Shown: piece after piece, positions 4,959 to 60,859 of the stretch
Numbering within the stretch: position 1 is the first letter of the stretch
How the letters are laid out: each line of letters begins with the position of its first letter
Source of the DNA: Brachycybe producta
Taxonomy: Eukaryota > Arthropoda > Diplopoda > Playtdesmida > Andrognathidae
Reading direction: 5' to 3'
DNA length: 64,000 nt
Assembly (NCBI GenBank): GCA_036925085.1
Contig: JAUPFP010000026.1
Coordinates: 2,488,501 to 2,552,500 of the forward strand
Notes under the pieces: generated by a model
The model's database searches: none
Told to the model about the DNA's origin: nothing
The model's input: the letters and a program-made list of their open reading frames with translations, nothing else
Position numbers and translations under genes: made by a program

Positions 4959-5164
4959 ACAGGCAATTAGAAATCGGGACAAACACAAGTTGGTTCCGCC
5001 CTTTTTATGACGACTGGCAACTTCTAATTGGTTTGTTGTGTGGTTTGACGTTGAAAAGGGCGGAGCATGTGACGTCAGGCTACATAACCAACCAATTAGA
5101 AGTTGCCAGTCGTCATAAAAAGGGCGGAGCCAACTTCTGTTTGTCCCGATTTCTAATTGCCTGT
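4959..5164. mobile_element. Foldback element A, copy 1
   Basis: Type copy of the most abundant family here. It runs ACAGGCAATTAGAAATCGGG to the exact inverse ending GCCTGT. Arms of about 78 bases surround an unpaired core of about 50, so nearly the whole element folds into one hairpin. Flanks CTAAATTAC and TTAAATTAC give a 9-base target duplication with one mismatch. The copy carries CCAAT, GGGCGGAGC and TGACGTCA motifs. It encodes nothing. Long inverted repeats and 9-base duplications fit a Mutator-like foldback MITE; this is inference. Confidence 0.9.
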
Positions 5165-5239
5165 TTAAATTACACGTTGGATTTCCCTATGCAAGGTTAA
5201 TTTAAATTTTTTTTTTCGCGCCATCTGCTGTTTTTTTCT

Positions 5240-5552
5240 TGCACGTTTGTCAGTGTTAAATCCCATAGGACCAAAAAAACCGTCCAACAAACGTTTGAAG
5301 ACCTCTAGTTAAAACGATTTAGAGCAATAACAATATAATTAGCACGTGCATTATTAATGTATAGGCTCCGCTCTTGATTCATTTTTTAAGCTTAGCACGT
5401 GCAATTATTTTTCTATTAATTTTTATGTGACTTCATATCTTTGGACAAAAACCGTTTAAAAACCATTTTTAAACATCAACAACAAAAAAAAGATCGCAGC
5501 ACCTCCATTCGGAGAAATTTTGAATTAAACGCTGTGTCTAGGCTCTTAAATT
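5240..5552. repeat. Family H fragment with right terminus
   Basis: It carries AAATCCCATAGGACC, ACAAACGTTTGAAGA, TTAGCACGTGCA, GATCGCAGCACCTCCATTCG and the terminus GTGTCTAGGCTCTTAA. The left half is missing. Confidence 0.7.
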
Positions 5553-5896
5553 TGATATAGTTAAATAATTTTTTGCAAATTTTAAAAGAAACACTTATTT
5601 AAGGTGGTTTTAAATTGTAAACGCCTTTTTTTTTTAAAAAAGATATCAACATGAAAATACAGTAATCATAAGTGATTGTGAGCTACTCTTCTAGTTTCTC
5701 TTAAAATTTGCTCAAGGAAGACAATAACCAGATTTCAAAAATCAACTGTTCATAAATTACCTTAAATACAGCCTATGGAAAAATAATAGAATCAAAATGC
5801 GATACGGATAAATTATTGAAATCAAAAAGTACATATATTTTTAAAAAAATATTCATCTAATTTTTTTTTTTAATTTTGTCATTTATTTGTTTTAAT
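5553..5896. other. AT-rich sequence, nothing recognised
   Basis: It contains CTACTCTTCTAGTTTCT near 5682, a phrase that also occurs in similar form near 20442, 35370 and 48630. This may be a low-copy dispersed repeat. Confidence 0.4.
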
Positions 5897-6310
5897 TTGG
5901 GATGGCACATTAGATTCCTCGAATTCCGCGAGTCTTGGAAAATATTCGAGATTCGAAAACTTGAATCTTCGCGCTTTTTTCGTTTTTCGAATCTTTCGAA
6001 TCCTAACCTAAAAAAAAATTGTTAAAAACTTTGGTAAAATTAGTTTGAACTCCATTGACGTCCAATAAAAGCGTTCTTTAACAAAAAAAACGGTGATTGT
6101 TGCAATTTCGGTGGTATCCGGATCACCAATATCACCTTGTGGTGACCCTGAGTCCAACACTTTTTTATTGTTAATAATTTAATATTCATTTATTTTTATC
6201 TTCTTAATAAATAATATAGGATTCTTATATGAAGGATTTGAGAGATTCGGTAGATTCGAGAACCTTTTAGGATTTGGATTCGAGAAAATTTAGGATTCGT
6301 TCCACCTCTA
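5897..6310. mobile_element. hAT MITE family I, copy 1
   Basis: The ends are TTGGGATGGCACATTAG and the inverse of TAGAGGTGGAACGAATCC. An identical 8-base duplication, GTTTTAAT, flanks it (5889-5896, 6311-6318), which places the family in hAT. Subterminal regions are dense in GATTCG/CGAATC motifs. The 414-base body contains TCCAATAAAAGCGTTC and GGATCACCAATATCACC, conserved in all copies, but encodes nothing. Confidence 0.9.
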
Positions 6311-6405
6311 GTTTTAATTAATATTTAAAGTTTATATGCAACATTCTAATTTTTGTATCAACTCGTAATGTATGCATGTATGCCTAGATTTTTTTTTTCC
6401 ATATA

Positions 6406-6574
6406 AGGCCTTGTTTCCATTGAGGTGAAAATATGAACTTTTTTAAAAAAAAATTTCAACTGGTGAAAAATAGAAGAAACGTGCCCCCCCCCCCCCCTGC
6501 CCATGCAGTATCGTTTGTTCAATTTTTCATCACTAGTTGAAATTTTAAAAAAAGTCACAGTGGAAACATGGCCT
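6406..6574. mobile_element. TIR MITE family G, copy 1
   Basis: AGGCCTTGTTTCCATTGAGG at the left is inverted at the right (CAGTGGAAACATGGCCT). Inner motifs TTCAACTGGTGAAAA and its inverse form a second paired block around a C14 run. Related copies lie at 16072 and around 32267-32650. Confidence 0.75.
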
Positions 6575-6999
6575 AACAATGAAATTCTAAAAATTAAACT
6601 AATTATCAGTGTAGTCGTTTTATGGGTATTTTGAGTTGATAAAAAAACTGTGACTATTGTTAGTAATCATTAAAAATAAACTTCATTGAGACCAAACTTG
6701 ACAATTTTTTTTTTACTTAAAAATGCCCTAAAATGTATGTACTTTTTTATTTCAATAAAGATTTCCATGAAATATTGACAAAAATTGATGAAATGTAGCT
6801 GATATGTGTTTTTTTTAGTAATTTTTCCGTAGTTCTTGTATATATTGTATTTTTTTTCTTTCAATTTGGTTTGATTTTATTGTCTTACAAATTATTCTGT
6901 TATTTTTAAATAAAAGTGTTTTTATAAATAGCCACTAGAGGGCAACACTTGTGGTAAGTTGGTTCTTATCATTAAACTGTTCTACGTTACAGATGCTTT
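6575..6999. other. AT-rich sequence left of the gene start
   Basis: No gene or repeat recognised. It changes near 7000 from AT-rich to CpG-containing sequence, consistent with a promoter-proximal boundary. Confidence 0.4.
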
Positions 7000-7409
7000 T
7001 TAGGTTTGATGTTTGATGGATGTGTGTGCTCTTTTCGTCACTTCCCATGCCCTCCTCATGCATTGGAAGCGACGGTGAATGAAAAAGGTGAACGAGACAA
7101 GAAGAAAAGGGGGGGGGGAGAGGGAGTTAAAGAGGAGGGTGAGGAGGTGGAGTAGGAGGGAGCAGTTTCTCCTAGCGTTCGATAACAAAGATCGGAAAAG
7201 GCTGTTCTGTGCATCGCTCTCACGCTGCATCGAGTTTTTCTCTTTGAGAGTCTATAGATAGATAGATATATTCTTTCGGCGGTTTGTGCTTGTCTTGAGT
7301 GTCGGTCGTAAGCGAGGGTTTCTTGCCGACGTACGGTACTTTCTTAGGACGGCTTTCTGCTGCGTTCACTTCCTCTTTTATATTATTTTGAACTGGAGTT
7401 TGCGGGAAT
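7000..7409 (+). promoter_or_regulatory. Probable 5' leader/promoter-proximal region of the zinc-finger gene
   Basis: The stretch before the ATG is repeat-free and richer in CG dinucleotides than the rest of the window (for example CTTGCCGACGTACGG near 7323). It contains a purine-rich block (7081-7170) and a GATAGATAGATATA stretch near 7255. The start of transcription cannot be fixed from sequence alone. Composition and position are the only evidence. Confidence 0.45.
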
Positions 7410-7449
7410 ATGCCAAGGAGGAAACAGGACTGTCCCAAACGGATGAAAT
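7410..7449 (+). CDS. First coding exon of a NuRD-recruiting zinc-finger repressor (teashirt/TSHZ-like)
   Basis: ATG at 7410 opens 13 codons, MPRRKQDCPKRMK, plus one base. A near-ideal splice donor follows, GTAAGT at 7450-7455. An N-terminal M(P/S)RRKQ is established as the motif by which FOG, SALL, BCL11 and TSHZ zinc-finger proteins bind the RBBP subunits of the NuRD co-repressor. Proline at position 2 and a proline at position 9 match vertebrate TSHZ (MPRRKQQAPRR) best, and those proteins also have a very short first coding exon. The remaining exons are not in the window, so the family assignment rests on this motif alone. SALL/BCL11/FOG types usually have serine at position 2. The product would be a nuclear transcriptional repressor. 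Confidence 0.6.
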
Positions 7450-8378
7450 GTAAGTACAAATTTTGTGTATGTTTTTTTCATTTTCAAGCGAGAGAGAGAG
7501 CGGTCTTGCACGGCGGATTTGTTTTTATTACGGTCGTCTCATTTTTTCGCGACAGAAAAGACAATCGACCTTTTTTTTTTTTACTGTTATTGACTAACGT
7601 CTATCTGTCAAAAAACAGCAACTAATTAATGCAAAGCTGATATTTCAGAATGTTTTTAATCGTTCGTTTGTGTGTGTTTTTTTTTAAATACGATATGTAA
7701 ATGATTGATATTTGAAGAGTGAGAAAAATTGAGATGGAAAAGAGGAGGAAAAACGTAGAAGAAGAAGAAGAAGGAAAAAAAAAAGAGGGCGAGCCAAAAG
7801 GCTGTTTGGCATTTTTCAGTGTCTGGCTGCTTTGGCTTGCTTGGGTTGTTCTTGGAGAGAAGGAGATGATGATGTAGCCCAAGCACCGAGCCTTCGCTTC
7901 ACTTCTATCAATCAAAGCCGCCTGCGCGCATGTGTCAATCACGCACGTCAGGCAAACGCAAAAAAGCGCTCTTTCTGAGCGGTCTAGTAGCAGTTCGTTC
8001 GTTTCTTTATATATTATATTAGATATTTTTGCTGCTTTTAGTTTCTTCAGCTATTTTTAGTGAATTTTGAGGTTTATACTGGTGAACAATTTCCTTTCAA
8101 AATGAGACAAACAAATGATGGAAATGAGTGGTTAGATAACAGCGACAGTTGTTAGCACGCATCTTTCTACCCTCTCCCCCTTCCCCTATCCTTCCTATAC
8201 TGAATAAAGGGGAGAAAAAAAGGGGGGGGGGAAGAAAGGGTTAGGTCACATAGAGAATGTGACAAGTCTTATAATAATAAAGTATTGTAATATGTTGTTT
8301 TTCTATTTGTATTGACAGTGGTTAATAATTTTTGCTATTGTATCGTATAACTACTGACCGGTAACATTGACCGGAAAT
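7450..8378 (+). other. Start of intron 1, repeat-poor
   Basis: From the GTAAGT donor onward no family repeat appears for over 900 bases, in contrast to the rest of the window. It includes a G-run at 8223. The absence of insertions may reflect constraint near the promoter; that is inference. Confidence 0.45.
7907..7922 (-). promoter_or_regulatory. Possible TCF/LEF site with adjacent helper-like motif
   Basis: ATCAATCAAAGCCGCC reads GGCGGCTTTGATTGAT on the minus strand. CTTTGAT is the HMG-box core recognised by TCF/LEF, and GCCGCC resembles the helper site used by invertebrate TCF. One such site can easily occur by chance. Confidence 0.25.
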
Positions 8379-8401
8379 TGACACACACACACACACAAAC
8401 A
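8379..8401. repeat. (CA)n microsatellite
   Basis: About nine CA units beginning GACACACACACACACACA, then AAACAC. Confidence 0.9.
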
Positions 8402-8483
8402 CTGTCATGTTTGTTTCACGTGGTTTGTTTATTTAATTCGTTATCGAGAATAATTGTTTTTTTTTGGGGGGGGGGGACGGTAT

Positions 8484-9852: not shown

Positions 9853-10645
9853 TACGGAGCCCTGTTGAGGACATGGAATATTTTTTTTTATCTCGTCCGG
9901 ACGAGATACTATAAGTCGCCTGGACGAGATACCATAAGTCGTCCAGACGAGATAGTCAATTCAGGATGAAAGGATGAACATTGTAAGGTAACTCTAAACC
10001 CCGAAACAGAATGCATATAGAATTGGAGAGTAGATGGTGTTACATTAAATTAAGGTTGTGGAAGGGGGTCTGGGGGGCGCAGCCCCCCTCCCCTCCAGAA
10101 TGTAAAAAAAATCACGTGATTTTAATTTTAAAAATGGTTATGTTGTTTCGCACCCATGTTAGTACCAATGTTCAGCCAAATTCTATATGCATTTTGTTTC
10201 TGGTTTTAGAGTTACCCCTACAACTAATCATCCTTTCATTCTGACCCCGACTTACTATTTCGTCTGGATTACTTAGTATCTCGTCTGGACGACTTAGTAT
10301 CTCGTCTGGACGACTTAGTATCTCGTCTGGACGACTTAGTATCTCGTCTGGACGACTTAGTATCTCGTCTGGACGACTTAGTAACACAGGCACACTCCTG
10401 TGCCCAGCAGTAAAATTTTGTTGGCCCCGCCCTTTTCTGAACGTCATCGATTTCTAATTGGTTTGTTACTTGGTCTGATTTCACATGCTCCGCCCTTTTC
10501 AATTTTTAATTGGTTGATATTTGGTCTGACGCTCATAAAAGAACGGGGCCAACAGAGTTTTACTGCTGGGCACACTTGCCTGTGTTACAAAGTCGTCCAG
10601 ACGAGTCATAAAAAATATATTTCATGTCCTCAACAAGGCTCCGTA
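9853..10645. mobile_element. Family C palindrome with tandem-repeat arms
   Basis: TACGGAGCCCTGTTGAGGAC at the left is inverted at the right (GTCCTCAACAAGGCTCCGTA). AATATC flanks both sides (9847-9852, and after 10645 once element A copy 2 is removed), suggesting a 6-base duplication. The inner arms are arrays of CGACTTAGTATCTCGTCTGG, 2-3 degenerate units on the left and about six near-identical units at 10261-10385. A separate inverted pair (GGTAACTCTAAACC near 9989, GGTTTTAGAGTTACC near 10202) brackets a G-run hairpin. Element B copy 1 occupies the right part. Confidence 0.7.
10386..10583. mobile_element. Foldback element B, copy 1
   Basis: Type copy of B. It runs ACAGGCACACTCCTGTGCCC to GCTGGGCACACTTGCCTGT. 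It shares with A the termini, CCGCCCTTTT, CCAATTAGAA-type and CATAAAAG blocks, but the outer 25 bases differ (GTGCCCAGCA). The flanks are inverted, not direct (TTAGTAAC / GTTACAAA), so no target duplication is seen and the copy sits at the centre of a C palindrome. Confidence 0.8.
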
Positions 10646-10649: not shown

Positions 10650-10846
10650 ACAGGCAAATAGAAATCGGGATGAACGGAAGTTGGCTTTTTATGACGAACG
10701 CAACTTCTAATTGGTTGTTTATGTAGTCTGACGTCACATGCTCCGCTCGTTTCAACGTCGAACCACACAACAAACCAATTAGAAGTTGCCTTTCGTCATA
10801 AAAAGGGCGGAGCCAACTTTTATTCATCCCGTTTTTAATTGCCTGT
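10650..10846. mobile_element. Foldback element A, copy 2
   Basis: ACAGGCAAATAGAAATCGGG to TTTTTAATTGCCTGT, with perfect 9-base duplications CCGTAAATA (10641-10649, 10847-10855). It inserted across the right end of element C, so it is younger than C. Confidence 0.92.
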
Positions 10847-11193: not shown

Positions 11194-11395
11194 ACAGGCA
11201 AGTGTGCTCGGCAGCACAATACAGTCGTTTGCTCTGCCCCTTTTATGAACGTCAGAATCAAATATCAACCAATTAGGAATTGAAACGGGCAAGGCATGTG
11301 ACGTCAGACCCAATAACAAACCAATTAGAAGTTGTCGTGCCTCTTAAAAGGGGGCGGAGCAAATGACTTGTATTGTGCTGAGCACACTTGCCTGT
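11194..11395. mobile_element. Foldback element B, copy 2
   Basis: ACAGGCAAGTGTGCTCGGCA to its inverse ending CACACTTGCCTGT. Flanks TTGATTAAGAC on both sides give an 11-base direct repeat. The copy contains GTGACGTCAGACCC and two CCAATTAG blocks. Confidence 0.9.
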
Positions 11396-11407: not shown

Positions 11408-11779
11408 ATATATGTCGCACCTCGGCCTAGAAGTGACGGTCAGGCATCTGTAGACAGCTTTAGAACATTTTTTTGTTTCCGCCCTTTTATGAGCGTCAGA
11501 CCAAATATCAACCAATTAGAAATAAAAAAGCTCGGGGCATGTGACATCAGACCCAGTAACAGATTAATTAGAAATTGATGACGCTCATAAAAGGGCGGAG
11601 CCAAAGAAATTCTGAAGCTGACTACAGATGCCTGTTCGAGAAGAGCGGCACAACTAAAAAAAACACTTTTTTGTGGGTGGGGGGAGGGGAAATGAGTTTT
11701 AAACCCATTTCCCCCTCCCCCCCCCCCGCAATAAAGCGGTTTTTGAGTCGTGCCACGCTTCCAGCCGAGGTGCGATGTA
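11408..11779. repeat. Short palindromic element P split by element B
   Basis: TGTCGCACCTCGGC at the left is inverted at 11764-11778 (GCCGAGGTGCGATG). With B copy 3 removed, the left arm continues GCGGCACAACTAAAAAAAAC, pairing with GGTTTTTGAGTCGTGCC on the right. Runs of G and C (about 11677 and 11710) form the loop. Confidence 0.6.
11440..11635. mobile_element. Foldback element B, copy 3
   Basis: TCAGGCATCTGTAGACAGCT to the inverse AGCTGACTACAGATGCCTGT. The ends differ from B copies 1 and 2 (ATCTGTAG instead of TGTGCCCAG) while the middle is shared, so it is a subfamily. Inserted into palindrome P, with imperfect flank repeats (GAAGTGACGG / GAGAAGAGCGG). Confidence 0.8.
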
Positions 11780-15163: not shown

Positions 15164-15744
15164 TAGGGATGGGCCATTCGAATCCCGTGAATCTTGAAAA
15201 ATATTCGAGATTCAAAAACTCGAATCTTAGCGCTTTTTTGAATCCTAACCTATAAAAAAAATAGGCAATTAGAAGTCGGGACAAACACAAGTTGGCTCCG
15301 CCCTTTTTATGACGACCTGCAACTTTTAATTGGTTGGTTATGTAGTTTGCCGTCACATGCTCCGTCCTTTTCAACGTCGAACCACACAACAAACCAGTTA
15401 GAAGTTGCCGGTCGTCATAAAAAGGGCAGAGCCAACTTCTTTATGTCCCGATTTCTAATTGACAATAAAAAAACTGTTAAAATACTTCGATAAAATTAGT
15501 TTTAACTCCAATTGAAGTCCAATAGAAGCGTTCAATAAAAAAAACCCGGCGATTGTTGAAATTTCGGTTGGTACTCGGAGTGCTGCACTGTTTTTCAATT
15601 ATTAATAATTTAATATAATTAATATTATTTCATTTATTTGTATCTTTCTTAATAAATAATAGGATTCTTATATGAACGATTCGGGAGATTCGAGAACTTT
15701 TTAGGATTCGGATTCGAGAAAATTTAGGATTCGTTTCACCTCTA
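15164..15744. mobile_element. hAT MITE family I, copy 4, split by element A
   Basis: It begins TAGGGATGGGCCATTCGAATC and ends with TTTCACCTCTA. Family I sequence stops at 15260 and resumes at 15465 across A copy 3. No matching 8-base flanks were found. Confidence 0.85.
15261..15464. mobile_element. Foldback element A, copy 3
   Basis: ATAGGCAATTAGAAGTCGGG to TTCTAATTGACA, flanked by the 9-base repeat ATAAAAAAA. The empty site is known from other family I copies (CCTAACCTAAAAAAA-ACTGTT), so the insertion is clear. Confidence 0.92.
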
Positions 15745-18308: not shown

Positions 18309-19015
18309 ATACGGCCAAGGTTGGCAAAATCCTGGGAAAAACCGGTAAATGGTACTGGTAAATACCAGTTACAACTGGTGTTTACTACTAAAACCGGGAA
18401 AAACTAGTATTGTGCTCTTTTCATCTAGTACTAGCTAGTGTTAATATTATCTTATGATGCATTGTCTCACTAGTCAAATGACAACTTCTGTTAACAGGCA
18501 ATTAGAAAACGGGATGAACAGAAGTTGGTTCCGCCTTTTTTATGATGAATGGCAACTTCTAATTGGTTTGTTGTGTGGTTCGACGTTGAAAAGGGCGGAG
18601 CAGGTGACGTCAAATTACATAACGAACCAATTAGAAATTGTGTTTGTCATAAAAAGTACGGAGCCAACTTCTGTTATGTCTATCTGGATTCTGGTCACTA
18701 GTTTTTAATTTTGTGTGTTTATATACAGCATTTTTTACTTAAATCACAAAAAAATGACCTGGGGTGGAAGACCAGTAGATTCATTCATGATCACTTTGAA
18801 AAACATCGTAATGAACCGTGGAAAGTTAACTGTACGGAAAGAAAGTGACATCTGAGGGCCAGAAAATTTTCTGCTCATAAATTCAAAAAAGTAAAAAAAT
18901 TGGCTTAAAAAATTGAAATTGTCTAAAACTGAGAAAAAGCAATTATTCTCAGACGGTAAATACCGTGATAATATCCGGTAAATACCACTCCTGGAAAAAA
19001 AAACTTTGCCAACCC
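18309..19015. mobile_element. hAT-like element (CAAGGTTGGCAAA end), split by element A
   Basis: Left end CAAGGTTGGCAAAATCCTGG and right end inverse of CAGGGTTGGCAAAGTTTTT. Both subterminal regions repeat GGTAAATACC/CCGGTAAATA. The interior (18755-18880) has a fragment TTGTTACAT-free of stops that reads FIHDHFEKHRNEPWKVNC, resembling the start of a BED-finger hAT transposase; this is tentative. A copy 4 interrupts it. Confidence 0.65.
18494..18690. mobile_element. Foldback element A, copy 4
   Basis: ACAGGCAATTAGAAAACGGG is intact. The right 30 bases are diverged (GTCTATCTGGATTCTGG in place of GTCCCGATTTCTAATTGCC), so no duplication can be shown. It inserted into the hAT-like element around it. 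Confidence 0.8.
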
Positions 19016-19082: not shown

Positions 19083-19288
19083 ACAGGCAGTTAGAAATCG
19101 GGGAGAACTTCAGTTGGCTCTGCCCTTGTTATGACGACTGGCAACTTCTAATTGGTTTGTTGTGTGGTTCGACGTTGAAAAGGGCGGAGCATGTGACGTC
19201 AGACTACATAACCAACCAATTAGAAGTTGCGTTCGTCATAAAATGGGTTTGAGTCAACTGAAGTTCTCCCCGATTTCTAACTGCCTGT
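19083..19288. mobile_element. Foldback element A, copy 5
   Basis: ACAGGCAGTTAGAAATCGGGG to CCCCGATTTCTAACTGCCTGT. The flanks do not match. The right flank CATGTCCTACACAAACAAGG recalls the end of family C. Confidence 0.85.
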
Positions 19289-19938: not shown

Positions 19939-20125
19939 ACAGGCAGTTGTGTCTCCTTTTCGTTTGCCCCGCCCTTTTATGAGCGTTAGACCAAACATCA
20001 ACCAATTAGAAATTGAATAGGGTGGAGCATGTGATATCAGACCCAGTAACTAACCAATTAGGAATTGGTTACGCTCATAAAAGGGCCTGGCAAACGAAAA
20101 GTTAGTGCTGGGCAGAACTGCCTGT
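19939..20125. mobile_element. Foldback element B, copy 4
   Basis: ACAGGCAGTTGTGTCTCCTT to GTGCTGGGCAGAACTGCCTGT, with perfect 9-base duplications GTCAAGTAT (19930-19938, 20126-20134). Confidence 0.93.
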
Positions 20126-27677: not shown

Positions 27678-27856
27678 ACACGCAATTAGAAAACGGGACG
27701 ACCGGCAACTTCTATTTGGTTTGTTGTGTGGTTCAACGTTGAAAAGGGCGGAGCATGTGACGTCAGACTATATAACGAACCAACCAATTAGAAGTTGCCG
27801 GGCGTCATAAAAAGGGCGGAGCCAACTTCTGCGTGTCCCGATTTCTAATTGCCTGT
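27678..27856. mobile_element. Foldback element A, copy 6 (arm deletion)
   Basis: ACACGCAATTAGAAAACGGG to CTAATTGCCTGT with CATTTGAC duplicated on both sides. The left arm lacks about 28 bases around the GGCTCCGCCC block, so the hairpin is asymmetric. Confidence 0.88.
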
Positions 27857-28411
27857 CATTTGACTCGTTGCACGAAATCTTGCTGAAAAAATAGCCAGTG
27901 AGATCGCCCCATGATTCTTAGTTAAGACATGTATACTAGTTATGTTTAGTTAATATTTCAATTAATAGATACGGTATTGTATTTCTTAATTTTGCTGCTG
28001 GAGTAAGGAATGTTTCACTGTTTCAATTTTTAATAACTTGACTTCTATCTACAGTATAAGATAGAAACAATCTGTAAAATACAATTGAAAGGGAATTTAT
28101 TCAAGGTTTAGCATATTATTATGGAAACGTTTACCAGTCGACATATCCACCATCTTTTTTGGATACAAAGGGTAACACTTTTCTGAAGTTCTCCGAACAT
28201 GTTCTACAGTCATGTTTAAGTTAAAAGAGTTCTGATGACATACTGTATGTTATTCTCTCATGCAGATCACCCACTTTCAGTTGGCATTTTACAGATTGCT
28301 TAAATTATTATATACAATATACAATATTAAGCCAAGTCTGTCTGTCTGTATGTGTATGTGTAACGCTGTACAAACAAGGACAAAAACCTTTAAGCAAACA
28401 CATGTGAAGGC
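27857..28411. other. Unclassified sequence
   Basis: No gene or family repeat seen. Ends with the TGTGAAGGC target copy. Confidence 0.4.
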
Positions 28412-28618
28412 ACAGGCATTTAGAAATCGGGAAGAAAATAAGTTGGCTCCGCCCTTTTTATGACGAACGCAACTTCTAATTGGTTGGTTATGTAGTCTGA
28501 CGCCAAATGCTCCGCCCTTTTCAACGTCGAACCACACAACAAACCAATTAGAAGTTGCCAGTCGTCATAAAAAGGGGCGGAACCTACTTATGTTCTTCCA
28601 GATTTCATAAATGCCTGT
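28412..28618. mobile_element. Foldback element A, copy 7
   Basis: ACAGGCATTTAGAAATCGGG to CATAAATGCCTGT, with duplications TGTGAAGGC / TGTGAAAGC (one mismatch). Confidence 0.9.
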
Positions 28619-30125: not shown

Positions 30126-30332
30126 ACAGGCAATTAGAAATCGGGGACGAACAGAAGTTGGCTCCGCCCTTTTTATGACGAACACAACTTCTAATTGGTT
30201 GGTTATGCAGTTTGACGTCGCATGCTCCGACCCTTTTCAACGTGGAACCACACAACAAACCAATTAGAAGTTGCCGGTCGTCATAAAAAGGGCGGAGCCA
30301 ACTTCTGTTCGTCCCGATTTCTAATTGCCTGT
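30126..30332. mobile_element. Foldback element A, copy 8
   Basis: ACAGGCAATTAGAAATCGGGG to GATTTCTAATTGCCTGT; arms nearly perfect. Flanks do not match. Confidence 0.88.
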
Positions 30333-32149: not shown

Positions 32150-32266
32150 ACAGGCAATTGGAAATCGGGACATACAGAAGTTGGCTCCGCCCTTTTTATG
32201 ACGAACAGCAACTTCTAATTGGTTGGTTATGTAGTCTGACGTCACATGCTCCGCCCTTTTCAACGT
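32150..32266. mobile_element. Foldback element A, copy 9 (left half only)
   Basis: ACAGGCAATTGGAAATCGGG through CTCCGCCCTTTTCAACGT, then family G sequence begins. Losing one arm removes the hairpin. Confidence 0.85.
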
Positions 32267-32650
32267 AAAATGGTGAAAAATAAACACACGTGGCCCCTCA
32301 CCTATTCACTATCATAGGCAAAGGCCACGTTGATTCAATTTGTCAACAGGCATTTAGAGATCGGGACGAACACAAGTTGGCTCCGCCCTTTTTATGACGA
32401 CCGGCAACTTCCAATTGGTTTGTTGTGTGGTTCGACGTTGAAAAGGACGGAGCATGTGACGTCAGACTACATAACCAACCAATTAGAAGTTGACGGTCGT
32501 CATAAAAAGGGTGGAGCCAACTTGTGTTCGTCCCGATTTCTAAAGGTCTGTATATAATTTGTCACCATTTGAAATTTTCAAAGGCCACCGGTTGGTTAAA
32601 TTTTTTTCACCAGTTGAAATCTTCGAAAAGTTCAAAATTCACTAACAGGT
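32267..32650. mobile_element. TIR MITE family G, copy 3, split by element A
   Basis: AATGGTGAAAAATAAACAC at the left and TTCACCAGTTGAAATCTTCG with AAAAGTTCAAAATTCAC on the right are G blocks. A copy 10 sits between them. Outer ends are lost. Confidence 0.55.
32346..32551. mobile_element. Foldback element A, copy 10
   Basis: ACAGGCATTTAGAGATCGGG to CGATTTCTAAAGGTCTGT. AATTTGTCA precedes it and recurs two bases after the right end, consistent with a 9-base duplication plus small end drift. Confidence 0.87.
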
Positions 32651-35849: not shown

Positions 35850-36262
35850 ATACTCTTTTATGAACCACCAATTGAACCAACACGTGGTGATTGTCCTAAA
35901 CTACAGTCTAGTGATGTTCATAAACCACTATACAACAGGCATTTAGAAATCGGGACGAACAGAAGTTGGCTCCGCCCTTTTTATGACGACCGGCAAACTT
36001 CTAATAGGTTTGTTGTGTGGTTCGACGTTGAAAAATTCGGAGCATGTGATGTCAAACTACATAACCAACCGATTAGAAGTTGCCGGTCGTCATAAAAAAA
36101 AGGCGGAGCCAACTTCTGTTTATCCCGTTTTCTAATTGCCTGTGGGTGCATGTATATGTGCTTGACAATGCTTAATACTGCATGTGGACTTTTATGTCCC
36201 TTTGCCATAGGCCTATTTGGCTGCTAGCAGAGTACTAATTGTAATTGTAATTAGTACTAATT
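35850..36262 (+). mobile_element. LINE 3' fragment (family 2) carrying element A
   Basis: CGTGGTGATTGTCCTAAAC and GTGATGTTCATAAACCACTA match the coding end of the LINE at 53391, and from 36144 GTATATGTGCTTGACAATGC onward is its 3' untranslated tail, ending in (TTGTAA)n-like repeats. The segment between is missing and A copy 11 lies in its place. Confidence 0.75.
35935..36143. mobile_element. Foldback element A, copy 11
   Basis: ACAGGCATTTAGAAATCGGG to TTTTCTAATTGCCTGT. Flanks do not match, consistent with a deletion of LINE sequence at the junction. Confidence 0.87.
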
Positions 36263-40641: not shown

Positions 40642-40846
40642 ACAGGCAGTTAGAAATCTAGGAGAACTTCAGTTGGCTCCGCCCTTGTTATGACGAACGC
40701 AACTTCTAATTTGTTGGTTATGTAGTCTGTCGTCACATGCTCCGCCCTTTTCAACGTCGAACCACACAACAAACCAATTAGTAGTTGTTGGTCGTCATAA
40801 CAAGGGCGGTGGCCACTGAAGTTCTCTCCGATTTCTAACTGCCTGT
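40642..40846. mobile_element. Foldback element A, copy 12
   Basis: ACAGGCAGTTAGAAATCTAGG to TTTCTAACTGCCTGT, with perfect 9-base duplications TACTGAATG (40633-40641, 40847-40855). Confidence 0.93.
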
Positions 40847-41171: not shown

Positions 41172-41867
41172 AGCCCGTTACACACCTACAATTTTTACTT
41201 GCATTTTTGTGTCAATTAAATGATGAATGTTTTCAGTGAATGATTTGGTACATAAAATGTATAAATTAATTTATAAGTATCAATCGGCTGGGTTATACAC
41301 AAGTAAAAGTATTCGAACATTTTTACCTAAAAAAAATATGCTCAGAACAGTGTGTAATGTGACAGTTTATCATATATCTGGGGCGACTGAATAAGCGCCA
41401 AATTGAACAAACGCCAAACTAAATAAGCGCCAAATTGAACAAACGCCAAACTGAATAACCGCCAAATTTTTGGCTTTTATTCAGTTTGGCGTTTCTTCCA
41501 TTTGGCGCTTATTCAGTTTGGCGTTTCTTCCATTTGGCGCTTATTCAGTTTGGCGTTTCTTCCATTTGGCGCTTATTCAGTTTGGCGTTTCTTCCATTTG
41601 GCGCTTATTCAGTTTGGCGTTTCTTCCATTTGGCGCTTATTCAGTTTGGCGTTTCTTCCATTTGGCGCTTATTCAGTTTGGCGTTTGTTGCATTTGGCGC
41701 TTATTCAGTTTGGCGTTTGTTGCATTTGGCGCTTATTCAGTTTGGCATTTGTTCCATTTGGCGTTTATTCAGTTTGGCGGTTATTCAGGTTTTTTTGTAA
41801 ATTCTGATGGTCCAAATATTGTGAGCTTTTATAGACGTCAGACTGTGCAGATTTACAAACAGAACAT

Positions 41868-42047
41868 GCTAACCTAACCTAACCAAACCTAACCTAACCT
41901 AACCAATCCTAACCAAACCTAACCTAACCAATCCTAACCAAACCTAACCTAACCAATCCTAACCAAACCTAACCTAACCAATCCTATCCTAACCTAACCA
42001 ATCCTATCCTAACCTAACCTAACCAAACCAAACCTAACCTAACCTAA
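41868..42047. repeat. CCTAA-type array inside element X
   Basis: AACCTAACCTAACC with variants CCAAA and CCAATCCTAACC fills about 180 bases. The unit is the complement of the arthropod telomere repeat TTAGG, but the array is interstitial and imperfect. Confidence 0.85.
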
Positions 42048-42411
42048 CAATGTGTTTATCACATTTTGGCGGTTATTCAGTTTGGCGCTTGTTCAGTTTG
42101 GCGTTTGTTCCATTTGGCGCTTGTTCAGTTTGGCGTTTGTTCCATTTGGCGCTTGTTCAGTTTGGCGTTTGTTCCATTTGGCACTTATTCAGTTTGGCGT
42201 TTGTTCCATTTGGCGCTTATTCAGTTTGGCGTTTGTTCCATTTGGCTTTTATTCAGTTTGGTGTTAGTTCAGATTGGCGTTTGTTCAATTTGGCGTTTGT
42301 TCAATTTGGCGCTTGTTCAATTTGGCGTTTGTTCAATTTGGCGCTTGTTCAATTTGGCGCTTGATCAGTGCCACCGTATATCTAACCTTGTGATCTTCTA
42401 GATGGTGGCGC

Positions 42412-42800
42412 TGATCAAGCGCCAAATTGAACAAACGCCAAACGGAACAAGCGCCAAACGGAACAAGCGCCAAACGGAACAAGCGCCAAACGGAACAAGC
42501 GCCAAACGGAACAAGCGTCAAACGGAACAAGCGCCAAACGGAACAAGCGCCAAACGGAACAAGCGCCAAACGGAACAAGCGCCAAACGGAACAAGCGCCA
42601 AATGGAACAAGCGCCAAACGGAACAAGCGCCAAACGGAACAAGCGCCAAACGGAACAAGCGCCAAACGGAACAAGCGCCAAACGGAACAAGCGCCAAACG
42701 GAAGAAGCGCCAAACGGAAGAAGCGCCAAACGGAAGAAACGCCAAACGGAAGAAACGCCAAACGGAACAAGCGCCAAATGGAAGAAACGCCAAACTGAAT
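42412..42800. repeat. 16-base tandem array, about 24 units
   Basis: GCGCCAAACGGAACAA is repeated with very low divergence, with a few AAGAA variants toward the right. It is more uniform than the arrays on the left of X, which suggests recent expansion or gene conversion. Confidence 0.9.
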
Positions 42801-43178
42801 AAAAGCCAAAAATATGGCAGTTATTCAGTTTGGCGTTTGTTCCATTTGGCGCTTATTCAGTTTGGCGTTTGTTCAATTTGGCGCTTATTCAGTCGCCCCC
42901 TTCTAGACAAGAGAATTGGGGGGGAGAGGTGTGCTAAATAGGTTGCAGAGCGCATAGTATATAGCTTTGTAAATTACATAATAATGATGGTGATCCTGAA
43001 AAAGCGCTCTAGTAGACGTGATCATTTAAGAAAAATAGAACATCTTCTAAATTAATGTAGTTTTTGAATAAATAATTTAACATTCACGTCGTTATACACA
43101 TAACACATGCACTGTCACATTTATAAATTTATACATTTATTTAAGAACTAATTGTAATTGTAGGCCTATAACGGGCTT

Positions 43179-46701: not shown

Positions 46702-46829
46702 ACAGGCGTCTGTGCCCAGCACTACAATTTTGTTTGCCCCATCAGACCAACTAACAAACCAATTAGAAATTGTTGCCACTCATAAAAGGGCGGACAAACG
46801 AAATTCTGTCGCTGGGCAGAGCTGCCTGT
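46702..46829. mobile_element. Foldback element B, copy 5 (short)
   Basis: ACAGGCGTCTGTGCCCAGCA to GCTGGGCAGAGCTGCCTGT, with perfect 9-base duplications GACGTGTGG (46693-46701, 46830-46838). The 128-base copy lost part of its core. Confidence 0.93.
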
Positions 46830-46867: not shown

Positions 46868-46992
46868 TAGTCTGACGTCGCATGCTCCGCCCTTTTCAAC
46901 GTCGAACCACACAACAAACCAATTAGAAGTTGGCGGTCGTCATAAAAAGGGCGGAGCCAACTTCTGTTTGTCCCGATTTCTAATTGCGTGTG
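46868..46992. mobile_element. Foldback element A, copy 13 (right half)
   Basis: Begins in the core at GTCTGACGTCGCATGC and ends CTAATTGCGTGT; the left arm is missing. Confidence 0.85.
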
Positions 46993-49545: not shown

Positions 49546-50220
49546 CCTTTTTCTTGTTGCGGCTGCAGAGAGCTTGAGCTTGCACAAGGGCGCTGTATAC
49601 CCACACAGCGGCGCTGGAAATCGCCCCCCCCCCCCCTTCTTCCTCCCCCCAAAAAATGTTCATCTTTAACATTTAAACTAAGTTTCACTGAGAGGGTTCT
49701 TTAAGATAGAAGATGCTGTACGAGATTGGGAATAAAATGCACAAAACAGAACAGGCCTCCTCCATAACGCAATGTTTTATATATATATATACAGTATATA
49801 TGGTATTGGCTAATAAACGTTTTCTGTTGGACAGGTTTATGTTGTGTATGTGGGCGGTTGACGATGCATAAATCAAATTGTTTCTTGACAGCCAGTGACG
49901 GCTCTGTGTGAGTTACTCACTTTGTGTTTTTTTTGTTGCTGCTTTGGACGCACTGATGTGTGCTTCATGGTTGTCGTCAATATTTTTAAACTAACCCCGT
50001 CTCCCGACATTGTTTTCGAGTAGAATGTATAATGAAAATTATTAACTGGATTGCTTTCATAACCAACAAGCAGTATTGGCAAGTAATTTGTTAAAAACTA
50101 ATGAATTACTGTAATTAAATTACTTTTTTCAAGTAATTAGCAATTCAACACAAATGTAAATTAAAGATGAATTGCATTTTTTTTTACTGCAATTAATTTC
50201 TAATTACTTATGTTTTTAGA
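49546..50220. other. Unclassified sequence
   Basis: CCCCCCCCCCCC at 49625, AT microsatellite near 49780. No gene. Confidence 0.4.
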
Positions 50221-50421
50221 TTTTTAGAAATGGAAACAAACGGAAGTTGGCTCCGCCCTTTTTATGACGACCGGCAACTTCTAATTGGTTTGTTATGTGG
50301 TTCGACGTTGAAAAGGGCGGAGCATGTGACGTCAGACTACGTAACCAACCAATTAGAAGTTGCGTTCGTCATAAAGAGGGAGGAGCCAACTTATTGTTCT
50401 CCCCGATTTCTAAATGCCTGT
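50221..50421. mobile_element. Foldback element A, copy 14
   Basis: The left ACAGGC is eroded (TTTTTAGAAATGGAAAC); the right end ATTTCTAAATGCCTGT is intact. Core and arms are normal. Confidence 0.85.
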
Positions 50422-51011: not shown

Positions 51012-51125
51012 ATAGGCTGTTATGCCCAACACTAAAATTTCGTTTGCCCCGCGCTTTTATGAACGTCATCAGTTTCTAGTTGGTTTGTTACTTGGTCTGA
51101 TGTCACATGCCCCGCCCTTTTCAAT

Positions 51126-51567
51126 TAAATTCAATTAAATACACCTGCAATCAGCTCGAAAGCCATGTGGCAGGGGCGGGGGGATTGCTCCCAATCACGA
51201 CTGATTGTCATTATTTAAAAATAAGACATCATCATGAAATTGAAATCGTCCTAACAAAGAACTATTCACAGGAAGAGAATTCCATAGTCTAATAACATTA
51301 AGAAGAAAAGACCAAAAATATGCATCAGTCCTAGCCATTAATTCTTTTAAAGTTTTTGAATGCCCAAATCTACCTTTACGAGGATTTCTAGTTAGTAAAC
51401 CATTAAGCAGGGTAATGTTATTACAAGACAGCAAACGTCCCAGAAGAGCGAGACTTTGCTCATTTCTTCGGCCTGCTAATGATTCCCATTCTAGCTCTTG
51501 GAGCATAGACGATACGCTGTCAGTATATGCATACCGTCCCTTTACAAATTAACCTAACCTTTATGAG
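51126..51567 (-). mobile_element. LINE 3' fragment, reverse-transcriptase C-terminus (family 1)
   Basis: A 103-codon frame (51195-51506) reads LQELEWESLAGRRNEQSLAL, then LTRNPRKGRFGHSKTLKEL, MARTDAYFWSF and LLNVIRLWNSLPVN. This is the tail after the RT of jockey/CR1-type LINEs. The 3' end has an ATTTAATTGA-type tail. A short CAATT repeat at both junctions suggests target-primed insertion into B. Strongly 5'-truncated. Confidence 0.88.
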
Positions 51568-51648
51568 GGATGGCCAATTTCTAATTGGTTGATGTATTTT
51601 GTTTGATGCTCATAAAAGGGCGGGGGCAACGAAATTTTAGTGCTGGGC

Positions 51649-51827
51649 ACAGGTATTTAGAAATCGGGACGAACATAAGTTGACTCCGCCCTTTTCATGA
51701 CGACTGGCAACTTCTAATTGGTTTGTTGTGTGGTTCGACGTTGAAAAGGGATGAGTATGTTATGTAAAGACTACATAACCAACCAATTAGAAGTTGCCGG
51801 TCGTCATAAAATGGTCTAAATTCCTGT
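51649..51827. mobile_element. Foldback element A, copy 15, inside element B
   Basis: ACAGGTATTTAGAAATCGGG to GGTCTAAATTCCTGT with perfect 9-base duplications GTGCTGGGC (51640-51648, 51828-51836) made from the end of B. The right arm is shortened by about 30 bases. Confidence 0.93.
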
Positions 51828-55629: not shown

Positions 55630-55800
55630 TAGTGATGTGCCATTGAAATATTTCACGTGAAATGGATGTGAAATATTTCAATTTCATTTAAATATTTCAA
55701 ACGACATGCGTTTGAAATATTTTTAAAAAAAAAACCTGTTTTCAAGTACTGAAACCATAAATGCCAAAAAAAATATGGTGATTGTAATTGGTTCATAGGA
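55630..55800. mobile_element. hAT-like MITE family N, copy 2
   Basis: TAGTGATGTGCCATTGAAAT then ATTTCACGTGAAAT, and GTTTTCAAGTACTGAAACC near the right. Inverse orientation to copy 1. Confidence 0.65.
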
Positions 55801-55842
55801 GAGTATTTTAAACATGTTTAATTTTACCATTTGTGTCACTTT

Positions 55843-56531: not shown

Positions 56532-56569
56532 CTTTTGTGTCAATTTTTTTCTTCCAAAGTTTTTTTAAT

Positions 56570-56980
56570 CTGTTTCATTTTCACCCTTAAACATTGTAAA
56601 GAAAATGTAAAAGAGTCTGTTATTTTACCTTAGTCAGACCTATATTAGAATATTGTTCCCCAATTTTTGGAGCACATTTAGAAGTAACTTAAAGCACCAA
56701 ATAGAAATGGTACAGCGTAGTAGGGATGCAAGATTTGTGAAAGGAAGATACGTGTATACTGACTGTGTTTCTTGTATGCCCAAAGCCTTGCCCTTTTCGG
56801 ACGTTTACTGGCAGATGATAATATTGCCCTACTTAATGGCTTATTGAATACACATCCTCGTAAGGGAAGACACGGGCGTTCAAAGACTTTAAAAGAATTA
56901 ATGGCTAGAACGGATACATATTTTGGTCTTTTTCCCCTGAATGTTATTAGACTATTGATTTCTTTTCCAGTTTGATACGA
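56570..56980 (+). mobile_element. LINE 3' fragment (family 1), plus strand
   Basis: Frames read RPILEYCSPIFGAHL-like text, RSNLKHQIEMVQRSRDARF, VKGRYVYTDCVSCM, then HPRKGRHGRSKTLKELMAR and TDTYFGLFPLNVIRLL. The same family as 51126, with several frame changes. It meets the next LINE tail-first at about 56985. Confidence 0.85.
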
Positions 56981-56984
56981 TTAC

Positions 56985-58605
56985 ACTTACAATAAGGACT
57001 CTGCTAGCAGCCAAGTAGGCCTATGGCAGATGGACATAAAAGTCCACATGCAGCATTAAGCATTGTCAAGCACATATACATGCACAAAATTGCACATATA
57101 CAAAAAACAAAATTAATATACAAATGTCAATCCCACAAAACAAAATTATCCCCATTCAATACTGCCTCAGGAAGAGTTCCATTGTCTTATAACTCTAGGG
57201 GAAAAGAAAAGACCAATAATATGAATCTGTCCTAGCAAAAATCTCTAATTTTCCTAGAGTGGTCAGCCCTGCCCATGTATAGTGCTTTATGAATACAAAC
57301 CACTGAAGTTAGAGATACAGGCCTATAGTTTGCAGCTTCGGACTTATTTCCTGATTTAAATATTGGGTTAACATTTGCTAATTTCCACATACTTAGAACA
57401 ACCCCTGATCCTAAATTAGCTGAAGAAATGGTCCCTCTTCCCTAGCTAATTTTATAAGAACTACTGCATGAATTCCATTTGGCCCCCCACTTTTATTTTT
57501 ATTAAGGGTCAATAGTTGCTTGATAATTCCCTCAGTGTTAACAATAATATACCCGAAAGAATGCATTGTTCTAGACTCAAAAGTTTTAGGTGTAGTATTT
57601 TCATCTACTGTAAAACACTCTTGTATTGTTCATTCAACAAAGAAGCTTTCAATTCTCGGTGTGATATTAGTTCTCTATTTGCCCCAACAAGAGCTGGAAT
57701 CGAGAACTCACCATCCCGAGAATGCTAGACGTACCTCCAAAACAGCTTTGGATCTTCTTGCAGCCATTCAATGAGCTTATTAGTTTTAAAATCCTTATGG
57801 GCCAATGAGTTCTTTTTTAGCATTTGCACGAGCAATATGCAAACCATTTGCATTCAATAAACTTGAAGTACCTGCGTATCTATTTCTCCATAATCGCTGC
57901 TTACATAGAGCCCTTTTAACACATGGTGTATACCATGCTGGTGTTGAGGCATCCCGGACTCTTTAATGGAACAAACTTCGAGACCCCTCCCATCAGTAAC
58001 GAGTGAAAAATTGCCCAATTTTCATCAACATCATGCTGATTAAAATTATTTTTAAAGTTCTCAAGATTTTGCTGCATATGCAACTTAAACCCATCCTGGT
58101 TATATTTGTTATAAAGACTAACCTGCCTTACGGCTTTAACGGTACTCCTAACATTAACATTGACATCACAAGTTACAATGTGATGGTCACTAATTCCCTC
58201 AGAAACCTTAACATTAGATATCATAAGGGGAATGTTAGTTATTACAACATCAAGGACACTACTATTCCTAGTTGGTTGCATAACCATCTGTTCCATGGAG
58301 TAAATATCCAAACTTACCAACAATGAAACAGCTAAAGTAACATCAATCCCACCTGTAATTGAGCAAAGTTCCCAGTTTATGTTTGGGAAGTTAATATCAC
58401 CTCCTACAATTATAGCTGCGTTATTATGCACATGATGAAGGGCATCGAGACATGAGCAAATGGCAGCTATATCACTAATGGAAGATCCTGGAGGGCGATA
58501 GAAAGAAATTAAAAGTACCTTTTTCCCATTCAGCAACTTTACACTGCAGCAAACTATTTCACACCCAGTCTCAAGTGCCTGTTCCCTTTTTACAAGCATC
58601 ATCAA
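56985..58605 (-). mobile_element. LINE (family 2): endonuclease, linker, RT start, tail; RT core deleted
   Basis: Minus strand order: APE endonuclease (58605 to about 57950), linker with LLTLNKNKSGGPNGI (about 57490), RT opening WKLANVNPIFKSGNK and EAANYRPVSLTSVV (about 57300-57420), then directly IHKALYMGRADHSRK (57285) and the 3' tail to 56985. The RT catalytic core (about 300 residues) is missing between SLTSVV and IHKAL. The 5' end stops at element B. Motif order is that of jockey/CR1-clade LINEs. Inactive. Confidence 0.88.
57916..58605 (-). pseudogene. APE-type endonuclease domain of the LINE
   Basis: A 229-codon open frame. It has YRPPG (residues 36-40), GGDINFPNINW (68-78, catalytic Asp), LDVVITN (118-124) and SDHH (139-142, catalytic Asp-His), the ordered motifs of exonuclease-endonuclease-phosphatase domains in non-LTR retrotransposons. 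The N-terminal motif with the metal-binding Glu is missing because the element is cut at 58605. In intact elements it nicks the target to prime reverse transcription. Confidence 0.9.
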
Positions 58606-58734
58606 TTTCTAATTGGTTTGTTATTGGGTCTGATGTCACCATCTCCCACCCTTTTCAATTTCTAATTGGTTGATATTTGGTTTGATGCTCATAAAATGCC
58701 AACAAAATCGTACTGCTGGGTGGGCGCTCTTGCC
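58596..58734. mobile_element. Foldback element B, copy 7 (right part)
   Basis: CATCAATTTCTAATTGGTTT through CCACCCTTTTCAATTTCTAA to CTGCTGGGTGGGCGCTCTTGCCTGT. The left part is replaced by the LINE. Confidence 0.8.
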
Positions 58735-58759
58735 TGTCCTGTTGTAGCCACCAGCTCTC

Positions 58760-58967
58760 ACAGGCAATTAGAAAATGGGATGAACAGAAGTTGGGCTCCG
58801 CCCTTTTTGTGACAAACGGCAACTTTTAATTGGTTGGCTATGTAGTCTGATGTCACATGCTCCGCCCTTTTCAACGTGGAACCACACAACAAACCAAATA
58901 GAAGTTGCCGTTCGTCATAAAAACGGCGGAGCCAACCTTCTGTTCATTTCGTTTTCTAATTGCCTGC
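58760..58967. mobile_element. Foldback element A, copy 16
   Basis: ACAGGCAATTAGAAAATGGG to TTTTCTAATTGCCTGC. Flanks CCAGCTCTC / CCAAGCTCTC give a 9-base duplication with one inserted base. Its right flank, about 20 bases, is repeated after the next copy. Confidence 0.9.
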
Positions 58968-58989
58968 CCAAGCTCTCTGGTTGAAATAC

Positions 58990-59192
58990 ACAGGCATTTA
59001 GAAATCGGGATGAACATAAGTTGGCTCCGCCCTTTTTATGACGAACGCAACTTCTAATTGGTTGGTTATGTAGTCTGACGTCACATGCTCTGCCCTTTTC
59101 AACGTGGAACCACACAACAAACCAATAAGTTGCTGGTCGTCATAAAAAGGGGCGGAGCCAACTTCTGTTCGTCCCGATTTCTAATTGCCTGT
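58990..59192. mobile_element. Foldback element A, copy 17
   Basis: ACAGGCATTTAGAAATCGGG to CTAATTGCCTGT. It is flanked on both sides by CAGCTCTCTGGTTGAAATAC-like sequence (one base longer on the left), far longer than a normal target duplication. Confidence 0.9.
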
Positions 59193-59714
59193 GTCCAGCT
59201 CTCTGGTTGAAATACTTCTTTCTTTTGCTTCCAAACTAACCAAAATGCAATAATAATAATAAATAATAATAATAATTATAATAATAATAATAATAATGTT
59301 TAAAAGAAGGGAGTTCGTTCAAAGTGAAGAGCCGAAGAAAGAAAGTAATAAATAAAGTCTCGATATATTTTTTCTCTTCTTTCCTCTTGTTTCTTTTACT
59401 AATTAACGCCTGTAGCGATTCTTTAACTAAAAGTTTTTATTTTTACAAAAATTTTCTTCGTTATATGTCCGGTGAAAATAATTTACAACATAAAATCAGT
59501 CGTAAATGAAACTCGTTTTGAGATGAAATGTCATGAAAAAGTGTGTATATTTTTTTGTTATGAGAGGGTTTGTCGTGAAGATAATACGCCTCATAACTTT
59601 CGACCTTGTCAAAGGGAGAAGAAAAACCTGTAATCTTTTAAAATGTACGACTGATGACTGACTGATTTAGAAAAAGAGGTTTTTTTGTTAAAAAAAATGT
59701 ACAGCGTTTGGGTC
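59193..59714. other. Repeat-poor stretch with (AAT)n
   Basis: (AAT)n at 59247-59297; the rest shows no family repeat. Possibly unique intron sequence. Confidence 0.4.
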
Positions 59715-59927
59715 ACAAGCAATTAGAAGTCGGGACAAACAGAAGTTGGCTCCGCCCCTTTTTATGACGACCGCCAACTTCTAAATTGGTTTGTTGTGTG
59801 GTGGTTCGACGTTGAAAAAAGGGCGTAGCATGTGACGTCAGACTACATAACCAACCAATTAGAAGTTACCGTTCGTCATAAAAAGGGCGGAGCCAACTTC
59901 TGTTTGTCCCGATTTCTAATTGCCTGT
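59715..59927. mobile_element. Foldback element A, copy 18
   Basis: ACAAGCAATTAGAAGTCGGG to GATTTCTAATTGCCTGT; the core has a GTGGTGGTTCGACG insertion. Flanks not clearly duplicated. Confidence 0.88.
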
Positions 59928-60405
59928 CGTTGTGGAGAGGGGGGGGGGGGTCAGTCAAAATAAAAGAAAGAAGAGAGAAAGAAAAAGAAAAACTTCATGT
60001 TAGCAAAAATGAAACGTTTAAAAATTATGATTTCTTTGGCCACCATAAAGTTATCGCATTTTGTTGTCAGATATATATCTTGTTGTTAGGGAGCGCTCTC
60101 TTATAATGGTGTGGTTATTTATGGGGATTTTTCAAATGACGCGCACTCTACCTTAGACCACCCCCCCCCCCTTCTTCTTTCTCCCCTTCCACCACACGCT
60201 TTTTTGTAGCTCTGGAATAACAAGGTTTTAGTTTTGTTATTCAATGTGCGGTGGTGACGTTTTGTGAGAAACTGAAAATCCCTTTTTTTTTTGTTTCTTG
60301 CTCTCTCGCTCTCTGCTGCATGTAACTCGATTATTGACCATGTAGCGCCATCTAGTATATACTTGTTGAAATAAACACGTGTTTTTCTTAAAACAGGATC
60401 TGAAT
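59928..60405. other. Repeat-poor stretch with G- and C-runs
   Basis: GGGGGGGGGGG at 59940 and CCCCCCCCCC at 60162, purine tract 59958-59990. GACCATGTAGCGCCATCTAG at 60336. No gene; possibly unique sequence. Confidence 0.4.
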
Positions 60406-60613
60406 ACAGGCATTTAGAAATCGGGAAGAACTTCAGTTGGCTCCGCCCTTTTTATGACGACCGGCAACTTCTAATTGGTTTGTTGTGTGGTTCAACGTTG
60501 AAAAGGGCGCAGCATACGTGACGTCAGACTACATAACCAACCAATTAGAAGTTGCGTTCGTCATAAAAAAGGGAGGAGCCAACTGAAGTTCTTCCCGATT
60601 TCTAAATGTCTGT
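60406..60613. mobile_element. Foldback element A, copy 19
   Basis: ACAGGCATTTAGAAATCGGG to GATTTCTAAATGTCTGT, flanks GATCTGAAT / GATGTGAAT (9 bases, one mismatch). Confidence 0.91.
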
Positions 60614-60654
60614 GATGTGAATGGACATGTCTTCGTTTATAAGCAGTGCAGGCC

Positions 60655-60859
60655 ATAGGCAATTAGAAATCGGGACAAACAGAAGTTGGCTTCACCCTTT
60701 TTATGACGAACGGTAATTTCTAATTGGTTGGTAATGTAGTCTGACGTGACATACTCAGCCTTTACAACGTCGAACCACGCAACAAACCCATTAGAAGTTG
60801 TCGTTCGTCATAAAAAGGGCGGAGCTAACTTCTGTTTGTCCCGATTTCTAATCGCATGT
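60655..60859. mobile_element. Foldback element A, copy 20
   Basis: ATAGGCAATTAGAAATCGGG to GATTTCTAATCGCATGT. The core TGACGTGACA has lost the TGACGTCA form. No clear duplication. Confidence 0.88.

Follow-up and report, generated by a model that had tools for sequence, protein, structure and literature searches.

Element A of Brachycybe producta, a high-copy foldback family with 9-bp target duplications and probably of Mutator type

What kind of element has filled a short stretch of the Brachycybe producta genome with near-palindromes of about 200 bases, and how do the two arms of such an element stay alike? The question is raised by a window of 64,000 nucleotides (contig JAUPFP010000026.1, positions 2,488,501 to 2,552,500 of the forward strand; "the window" is this whole stretch) and by the repeat in it that we call element A. 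Our data indicate that A is likely to be a family of non-autonomous foldback miniature inverted-repeat transposable elements (MITEs), mobilised in trans by a DDE transposase that is most likely of the Mutator-like element (MULE) type.

Element A is a non-coding near-palindrome of about 205 bp with the ends ACAGGC and GCCTGT. Within the 205-bp consensus 88 base pairs form, and inverted repeats cover most of the element, as in foldback elements. The DNA fold of one full-length copy (32346..32551, plus strand) reached -88.1 kcal/mol, compared with -24.4 ± 3.6 in 200 shuffles (z -17.5). The initial annotation had counted about 20 copies between 4959 and 60859, and this count was confirmed by nhmmer with a profile made from 16 window copies and a cut-off of 100 bits: 20 copies scored above the cut-off, all of them in that interval, and seven weaker matches were relatives of A rather than A itself. 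No tandem-repeat arms were found in A, as the arms of the consensus are unique sequence and no tandem array lay over any copy in the window. The window is dense in A for this genome: its 64 kb contain 20 copies, whereas 20 arbitrary stretches of 10 kb contained 11 between them. This background rate is approximate, as the stretches come from contigs already known to have an A match and a few kb of one of them were not covered. Being short and non-coding, with inverted ends, a target duplication and a high copy number, A has the features of a MITE.

Of 72 copies, 66 had both ends, and the 63 of these with enough flanking sequence were examined for target duplications. Exact 9-bp duplications at the ACAGGC/GCCTGT boundary were present in 20 of the 63, and 32 had a 9-bp duplication with at most one mismatch. 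At each of the other lengths from 6 to 14, exact duplications numbered 0-2, and those with one mismatch allowed 0-3; exact 8-bp duplications abutted 2 copies, compared with the 20 exact 9-bp cases. Mismatched flank pairs, taken as a control, gave 9-bp matches with at most one mismatch at a rate of 0.03%. The tabulation of duplication lengths across the genome, suggested by the initial annotation, therefore peaks at 9 bp. The count is a lower bound, since an extra end base can hide a duplication; one copy (L016) has an extra base at its left end and the exact word CACTTGACT on both sides. An empty site was also found. The copy at L043 is flanked by TATTTTAAC twice, and an uninterrupted relative (L068) has one TATTTTAAC, with 85% identity over 113 bp. 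This empty site confirms the insertion of A. A possible second case (L038) has matching uninterrupted relatives but lies near a TGA microsatellite, and was not used as evidence. The 32 target sites also showed an insertion preference of the form CA-N9-TG, with C and A before the nine bases and T and G after them; at two places, A reached 52% (background 32%) and C 45% (background 18%). These sites were counted in both orientations, so the symmetry of the logo is built in and the letter preferences are not.

In the window, 5 of 14 copies tested had a 9-mer duplication with at most one mismatch. Of seven copies for which 8-9-base duplications had been listed at the outset, exact 9-mers were present at 10650..10846 (minus strand, full length, CCGTAAATA), 40642..40846 (minus, TACTGAATG) and 51649..51815 (plus, GTGCTGGGC, by eye; a copy with a damaged right arm), and 9-mers with one mismatch at 28412..28618 (minus, TGTGAAGGC/TGTGAAAGC) and 60406..60613 (plus, GATCTGAAT/GATGTGAAT). 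The copy at 27678..27860 (plus, internal deletion in the left arm) has an 8-bp duplication, CATTTGAC, by eye, and 15261..15465 (minus) proved uninformative, its A-rich flanks giving three mismatches in an A-run. The full-length copy at 4959..5165 (plus, 237.7 bits) carries (C/T)TAAATTAC with one mismatch. No duplication was found at 19083..19288 (plus, a GTT/CTTCAG subfamily member with the same variants on both arms) or at the full-length copies 30126..30332 (minus), 35935..36143 (plus) and 59715..59927 (plus).

Duplication length makes Mutator the best fit for A. MULE duplications measure 8-11 bp (PMC6446971), and the typical Mutator length of 9 bp is that of A. The 8-bp duplications of hAT elements and the 7-8-bp duplications of P elements are not. 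A profile of the MULE transposase (PF10551) had 21 matches in the genome, and a set of 8 ZSWIM/RNaseH matches overlaps with these. Three features led us to infer the Mutator superfamily for A: a 9-bp duplication, long arms and a genome with MULE genes. Alternatively, A may belong to another superfamily (P/Galileo-like, hAT, Merlin or an undescribed one), whose transposase would then be the one that makes 9-bp duplications. More than one superfamily has given rise to foldback elements (PMC3169594, PMC4079207), and none of the nine MULE matches whose flanks were read is framed by A ends and a duplication. The duplication peak is nevertheless at 9 bp and not at 7-8 bp, and PF12762, the Merlin (IS1016-type) transposase and the one rival transposase searched for, had no match in the assembly at this sensitivity. 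We regard another superfamily as unlikely, and prefer a Mutator origin.

The initial annotation had called A a Mutator-like foldback MITE and proposed a search for a larger element with the same ends and a transposase. The foldback structure, the consistent 9-base duplication across the genome and the empty site bear out the foldback MITE, and MULE genes are present; the superfamily itself is inferred, and the larger element was not found at 9 of the 21 MULE matches or in pattern searches. Flanks were read at nine matches in eight places (C89:451062, C13, C43, C32, C5 with two, C28, C1:14993664 and C18), and a tenth match was covered by 0.7 kb only. The stretches read stop short of the outer ends of a palindrome on C5 (L073) and of one side of an element on C13 and C28 (L069/L074). 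Several findings weigh against the Mutator reading or the sample behind it. Among the 63 copies, 31 lack a 9-bp duplication at the modelled boundary, some of them damaged. In the short flanks read at nine MULE matches, A ends and a duplication never framed a transposase gene. One MULE frame on C32 (L071) does lie between two A copies, with outer flanks that do not match and a near copy that has its own duplication. In addition, the 66 full copies aligned include 41 whose loci were chosen by similarity to one window copy and which lean young. The autonomous parent of A would be extinct, lost or not yet recognised.

Several candidates for such a parent were rejected. The MULE frame of L071 has 814 codons and C2H2 zinc fingers, and the nearer A copy is about 40 bp from its start. 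At this locus (L071/L072, G000:C32) the near copy is flanked by a duplication of its own, GTTATAAAA, and the far copy by none; as the outer flanks of the pair also differ, the two A copies were read as independent insertions. The MULE copies of L069/L074 are 99.4% identical, and the one boundary of theirs that can be seen lacks an A end. They have a long array of about 21-bp tandem repeats on one side, a Rehavkus/FB-like layout, and are possibly recent. The MULE paralogues at L068/L070 are 83% alike, with debris of A and of its relatives B close by. MULE fragments of the L079 type occur at five places, and the two compared share 1.7 kb and have boundaries without A ends. The words ACAGGC and GCCTGT surround the MULE fragment on C1, with flanks that do not match. 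The stretch G000:C5:5400400-5408300 (L073) is part of a giant palindrome that runs beyond the piece read. Its arms are 99.77% alike over 3.83 kb and hold a MULE frame of 1,003 and 1,088 codons, and contigs C2 and C38 have similar inverted pairs of MULE matches.

Pattern searches for A ends that run into other sequence gave 165 matches (control 0), 17 (control 0) and 38 (control 1), and no parent was found among them, the first search being judged on 100 of its 165 matches. Most were shifted or damaged A copies, together with one A copy broken inside another element, some single cases and an unrelated repeat. About ten of these 100 continue unlike A, of which those on C16 and C20 were examined further. 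One candidate, 4.3 kb between two facing A-like ends (L075), turned out to be a repeat with TTAA-type ends, present as two inverted copies within which an A copy is interrupted. A single open frame reaches 80 codons there, with a length of 113, and the inner 151 bp are a separate repeat (664 candidates, 40 scored). The loci L075, L077 and L078 show this inverted pair and the broken A copy within it; the repeat is another family of this genome. The word ACTTCTAATTGGTT in L082-L084 belongs to a different repeat with a TATA box, LTR-like (long terminal repeat) by eye.

How numerous is A? The genome searched comprised 295.3 Mb in 442 contigs. The exact 20-bp A end ACAGGCADTTAGAAAWCGGG occurred 9,765 times (4,859 forward and 4,906 reverse) and its reversed control not once. 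With 16 such ends on the 20 window copies and 10 on 11 sampled copies, the total comes to about 11,000-12,000 copies, or close to 0.8% of the genome. Extrapolated from the sample by itself, the number would be about 16,000, with a wide margin of error. Median divergence from the consensus was 6.8% in 14 window copies, 6.3% in the 11 sampled copies and 3.9% in 41 copies picked by similarity.

A copies are clustered locally. The first 100 of the 9,765 ends correspond to 69 elements, and 9 of the 68 gaps between these were under 500 bp, while 2,000 random placements gave a mean of 0.9 and a maximum of 5. In the window, copies at 58760..58966 (minus, flanks CCAGCTCTC and CCAAGCTCTC) and 58990..59192 (minus) form a tandem pair, and the second is followed by a repeat of the approximately 21-bp right flank of the first. 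Another tandem pair (L054) has a 5-bp spacer, ACTAG, which is found also before the first copy, and in a third pair (L067) eight bases (CTCAATCA) are common to the outer sides of both copies. These three pairs hint at duplication or joint transposition. At least one plain nested insertion is present, that of A into a B1 relative at 51649. The clustering and the repeated flanks at 58760-59192 and L054 could also suggest that A spread mainly by duplication of flanking DNA, in a segmental or satellite-like manner, rather than by transposition. The flanks of A copies differ, however, and carry 9-bp duplications, and one insertion has an empty counterpart; we consider such a general origin very improbable, while flank duplication may lie behind some of the pairs. 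Transposition remains our explanation for the family as a whole.

How the arms evolve was studied in 66 aligned copies and at 86 of the 88 pairs, namely those that are Watson-Crick in the consensus; the figures count copies and not events, and related copies have variants in common. Among 113 cases of a variant present in a single copy, the opposite arm carried the matching change in 1 (0.9%, against 1.0% for permuted partners). This changed to 11 of 114 for variants in 2-3 copies (permuted 2.2%), 64 of 172 for those in 4-8 copies (permuted 6.4%) and 100 of 149 for those in more than 8 copies (permuted 23.0%; highest of 200 permutations 32.9%). Pair 27/179 is A/A in 54 copies, T/T in 8 and mixed in 4, and pair 22/184 is T/T in 31, C/C in 16, A/A in 6 and mixed in 13. 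On contig C1, position 8 was concordant in 15 of 17 facing end pairs listed, with 7.7 expected; one facing pair 53 bp apart, left out of that count, disagrees. Towards the middle the arms match less well: for one short segment there, CCGG on one arm faces ACG on the other more often than any other combination occurs (11 of 66 copies), and matched versions are a minority. Because private variants are one-sided and common variants mostly two-sided, resident A copies decay arm by arm, and arm symmetry is renewed in the lineages that multiply. Descent from a small number of symmetric founders accounts for these counts. The symmetry of the founders may in turn come from selection for equal transposase sites, from gene conversion or from hairpin-templated copying. 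In the mechanism that we propose, the transposase would bind two matching outer ends and cut and paste the element; elements with matching arms would then amplify, or a hairpin or cruciform intermediate would copy one arm onto the other. Each successful sub-lineage would thereby start symmetric.

The same alignment bears on whether A copies are domesticated regulatory elements under selection. The consensus contains a cyclic AMP response element (CRE, TGACGTCA), CCAAT and GGGCGGAGC, and this motif-bearing core is partly common with B. Low-frequency variants were commoner in the motif columns (CRE, CCAAT, GGGCGGAGC and the outer ends), with 1.73 against 1.13 per non-CpG column and a permutation p of depletion of 0.997, and private changes were uncompensated on the other arm. 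Variant density in motif columns thus revealed no constraint on individual A copies and, as these columns are richer in low-frequency variants, no sign that copies are kept for function. A regulatory role is therefore highly doubtful.

Element A is one of several families that pair one core with different matched ends, because its relatives B1 and B2 share its core and first bases and differ in the outer ends. B1 and B2 are about 130-200 bp long, have a core about 75-83% identical to that of A and begin with ACAGGC, and their outer 30 bases differ from those of A. The two ends of the better-preserved copies carry the same module. Their duplications measure 9-11 bp, and two 9-bp cases match one further base; a B2 copy on another contig has an exact 10-bp duplication, GGATTTAGAT, by eye. 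B1 relatives with duplications lie at 11194..11395 (TTGATTAAGAC, 11 bp as read), 19939..20125 (GTCAAGTAT, exact 9 bp) and 46702..46829 (short; GACGTGTGG, exact 9 bp). No duplication was seen at the B1 relative 10386..10583 (ACAGGC ends, inner TGCCCAGCA) or at the B2 relative 11440..11635 (ends TCTGTAGACAGC). B1 fragments occur at 51014..51126 and at 51575..51634, the latter the target of the A copy at 51649, which lies within the end of this B1 copy, and a degenerate B1 relative at 58573..58737. We also entertain a bolder idea, that one foldback core has gained fresh pairs of matching ends again and again (A, B1, B2), and matching arm variants with them, by hairpin- or cruciform-templated copying at each amplification. 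Symmetry would then be rewritten in the germ line and not merely selected, and the same step would leave tandem pairs and local clusters. This idea is speculative and rather improbable.

Rehavkus and the Drosophila FB-NOF element are foldback elements with a 9-bp duplication and minisatellite arms; the arms of A, being unique sequence, differ from these. Arms of short tandem repeats, as in Tm1, FB-NOF and Rehavkus, are absent from A. The Mutator/Foldback element Tm1 of root-knot nematodes (Phantom-type) resembles A in being foldback and MITE-like, with many non-coding members and duplications of 8-10 bp, mostly 9 bp (PMC3169594). Its arms, however, are 13-15-bp tandem repeats, its end motifs are asymmetric and differ from the A ends, and it has a member encoding a FLYWCH-MULE transposase, unlike A as found here; target preference is weak in A, and for Tm1 no clear consensus is reported (PMC3169594). 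Tetris/DAIBAM of Drosophila virilis shares with A a non-autonomous foldback structure, 8-10-bp duplications, a transposase source that was not found and a possible homogenisation of arm repeats, which we liken to A (PMC4079207). It is unlike A in its three structurally complete copies, 220-bp arm repeats and satellite formation (PMC4079207). Muta1, a MULE of Aedes aegypti, likewise has 8-9-bp duplications, an imperfect palindromic terminal motif and long arms, but is autonomous, 3.2 kb long, with 12-bp subterminal repeats and no apparent target preference (PMC5225508). No high-copy foldback derivative of Muta1 is described in the part of PMC5225508 consulted, and Rehavkus is mentioned in PMC6446971. 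Three A end strings were not found in the text of 5.39 million open papers, where sequences are rarely printed, so this says little on prior naming. We read A as a new family of a familiar kind, the non-autonomous foldback MITE, and as probably of Mutator type. What is unusual in A is the quantitative split between one-sided decay and two-sided lineage change, and the presence of different matched ends on one core.

The remaining A copies of the window lie at 18494..18690 (plus, damaged right end), 32150..32270 (minus, truncated, by nhmmer), 46868..46991 (minus, truncated, 38 bp from the B1 copy 46702-46829), 50220..50421 (plus, damaged left end, by nhmmer) and 60655..60859 (minus, mutations at both ends). 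A 21-bp minisatellite at 10248-10383 adjoins the B1 copy at 10386; the word GAGATACTAAGTC occurs four times there and 26 times in the terminal array of the L069 MULE element. At 41386-42893, inverted 16/32-bp satellite arrays of the TTTGGCGTTTGTTCAA type flank a CTAAC (TTAGG-type) array at 41869-42048. A 230-codon open frame at 57919-58608 (minus strand) has the endonuclease domain PF14529 of non-LTR retrotransposons. Outside the window, G000:C94:225359-235439 and C16:1568594-1586352 hold rows of tandem FLYWCH exons, which we take to be like arthropod mod(mdg4)-like loci. These exons and the TTAGG-type array would fit an arthropod genome.

In a family as well populated as A, with copies of the order of ten thousand, one can measure how foldback elements renew the symmetry of their arms. 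The way in which such elements maintain two similar arms thereby becomes open to direct test.

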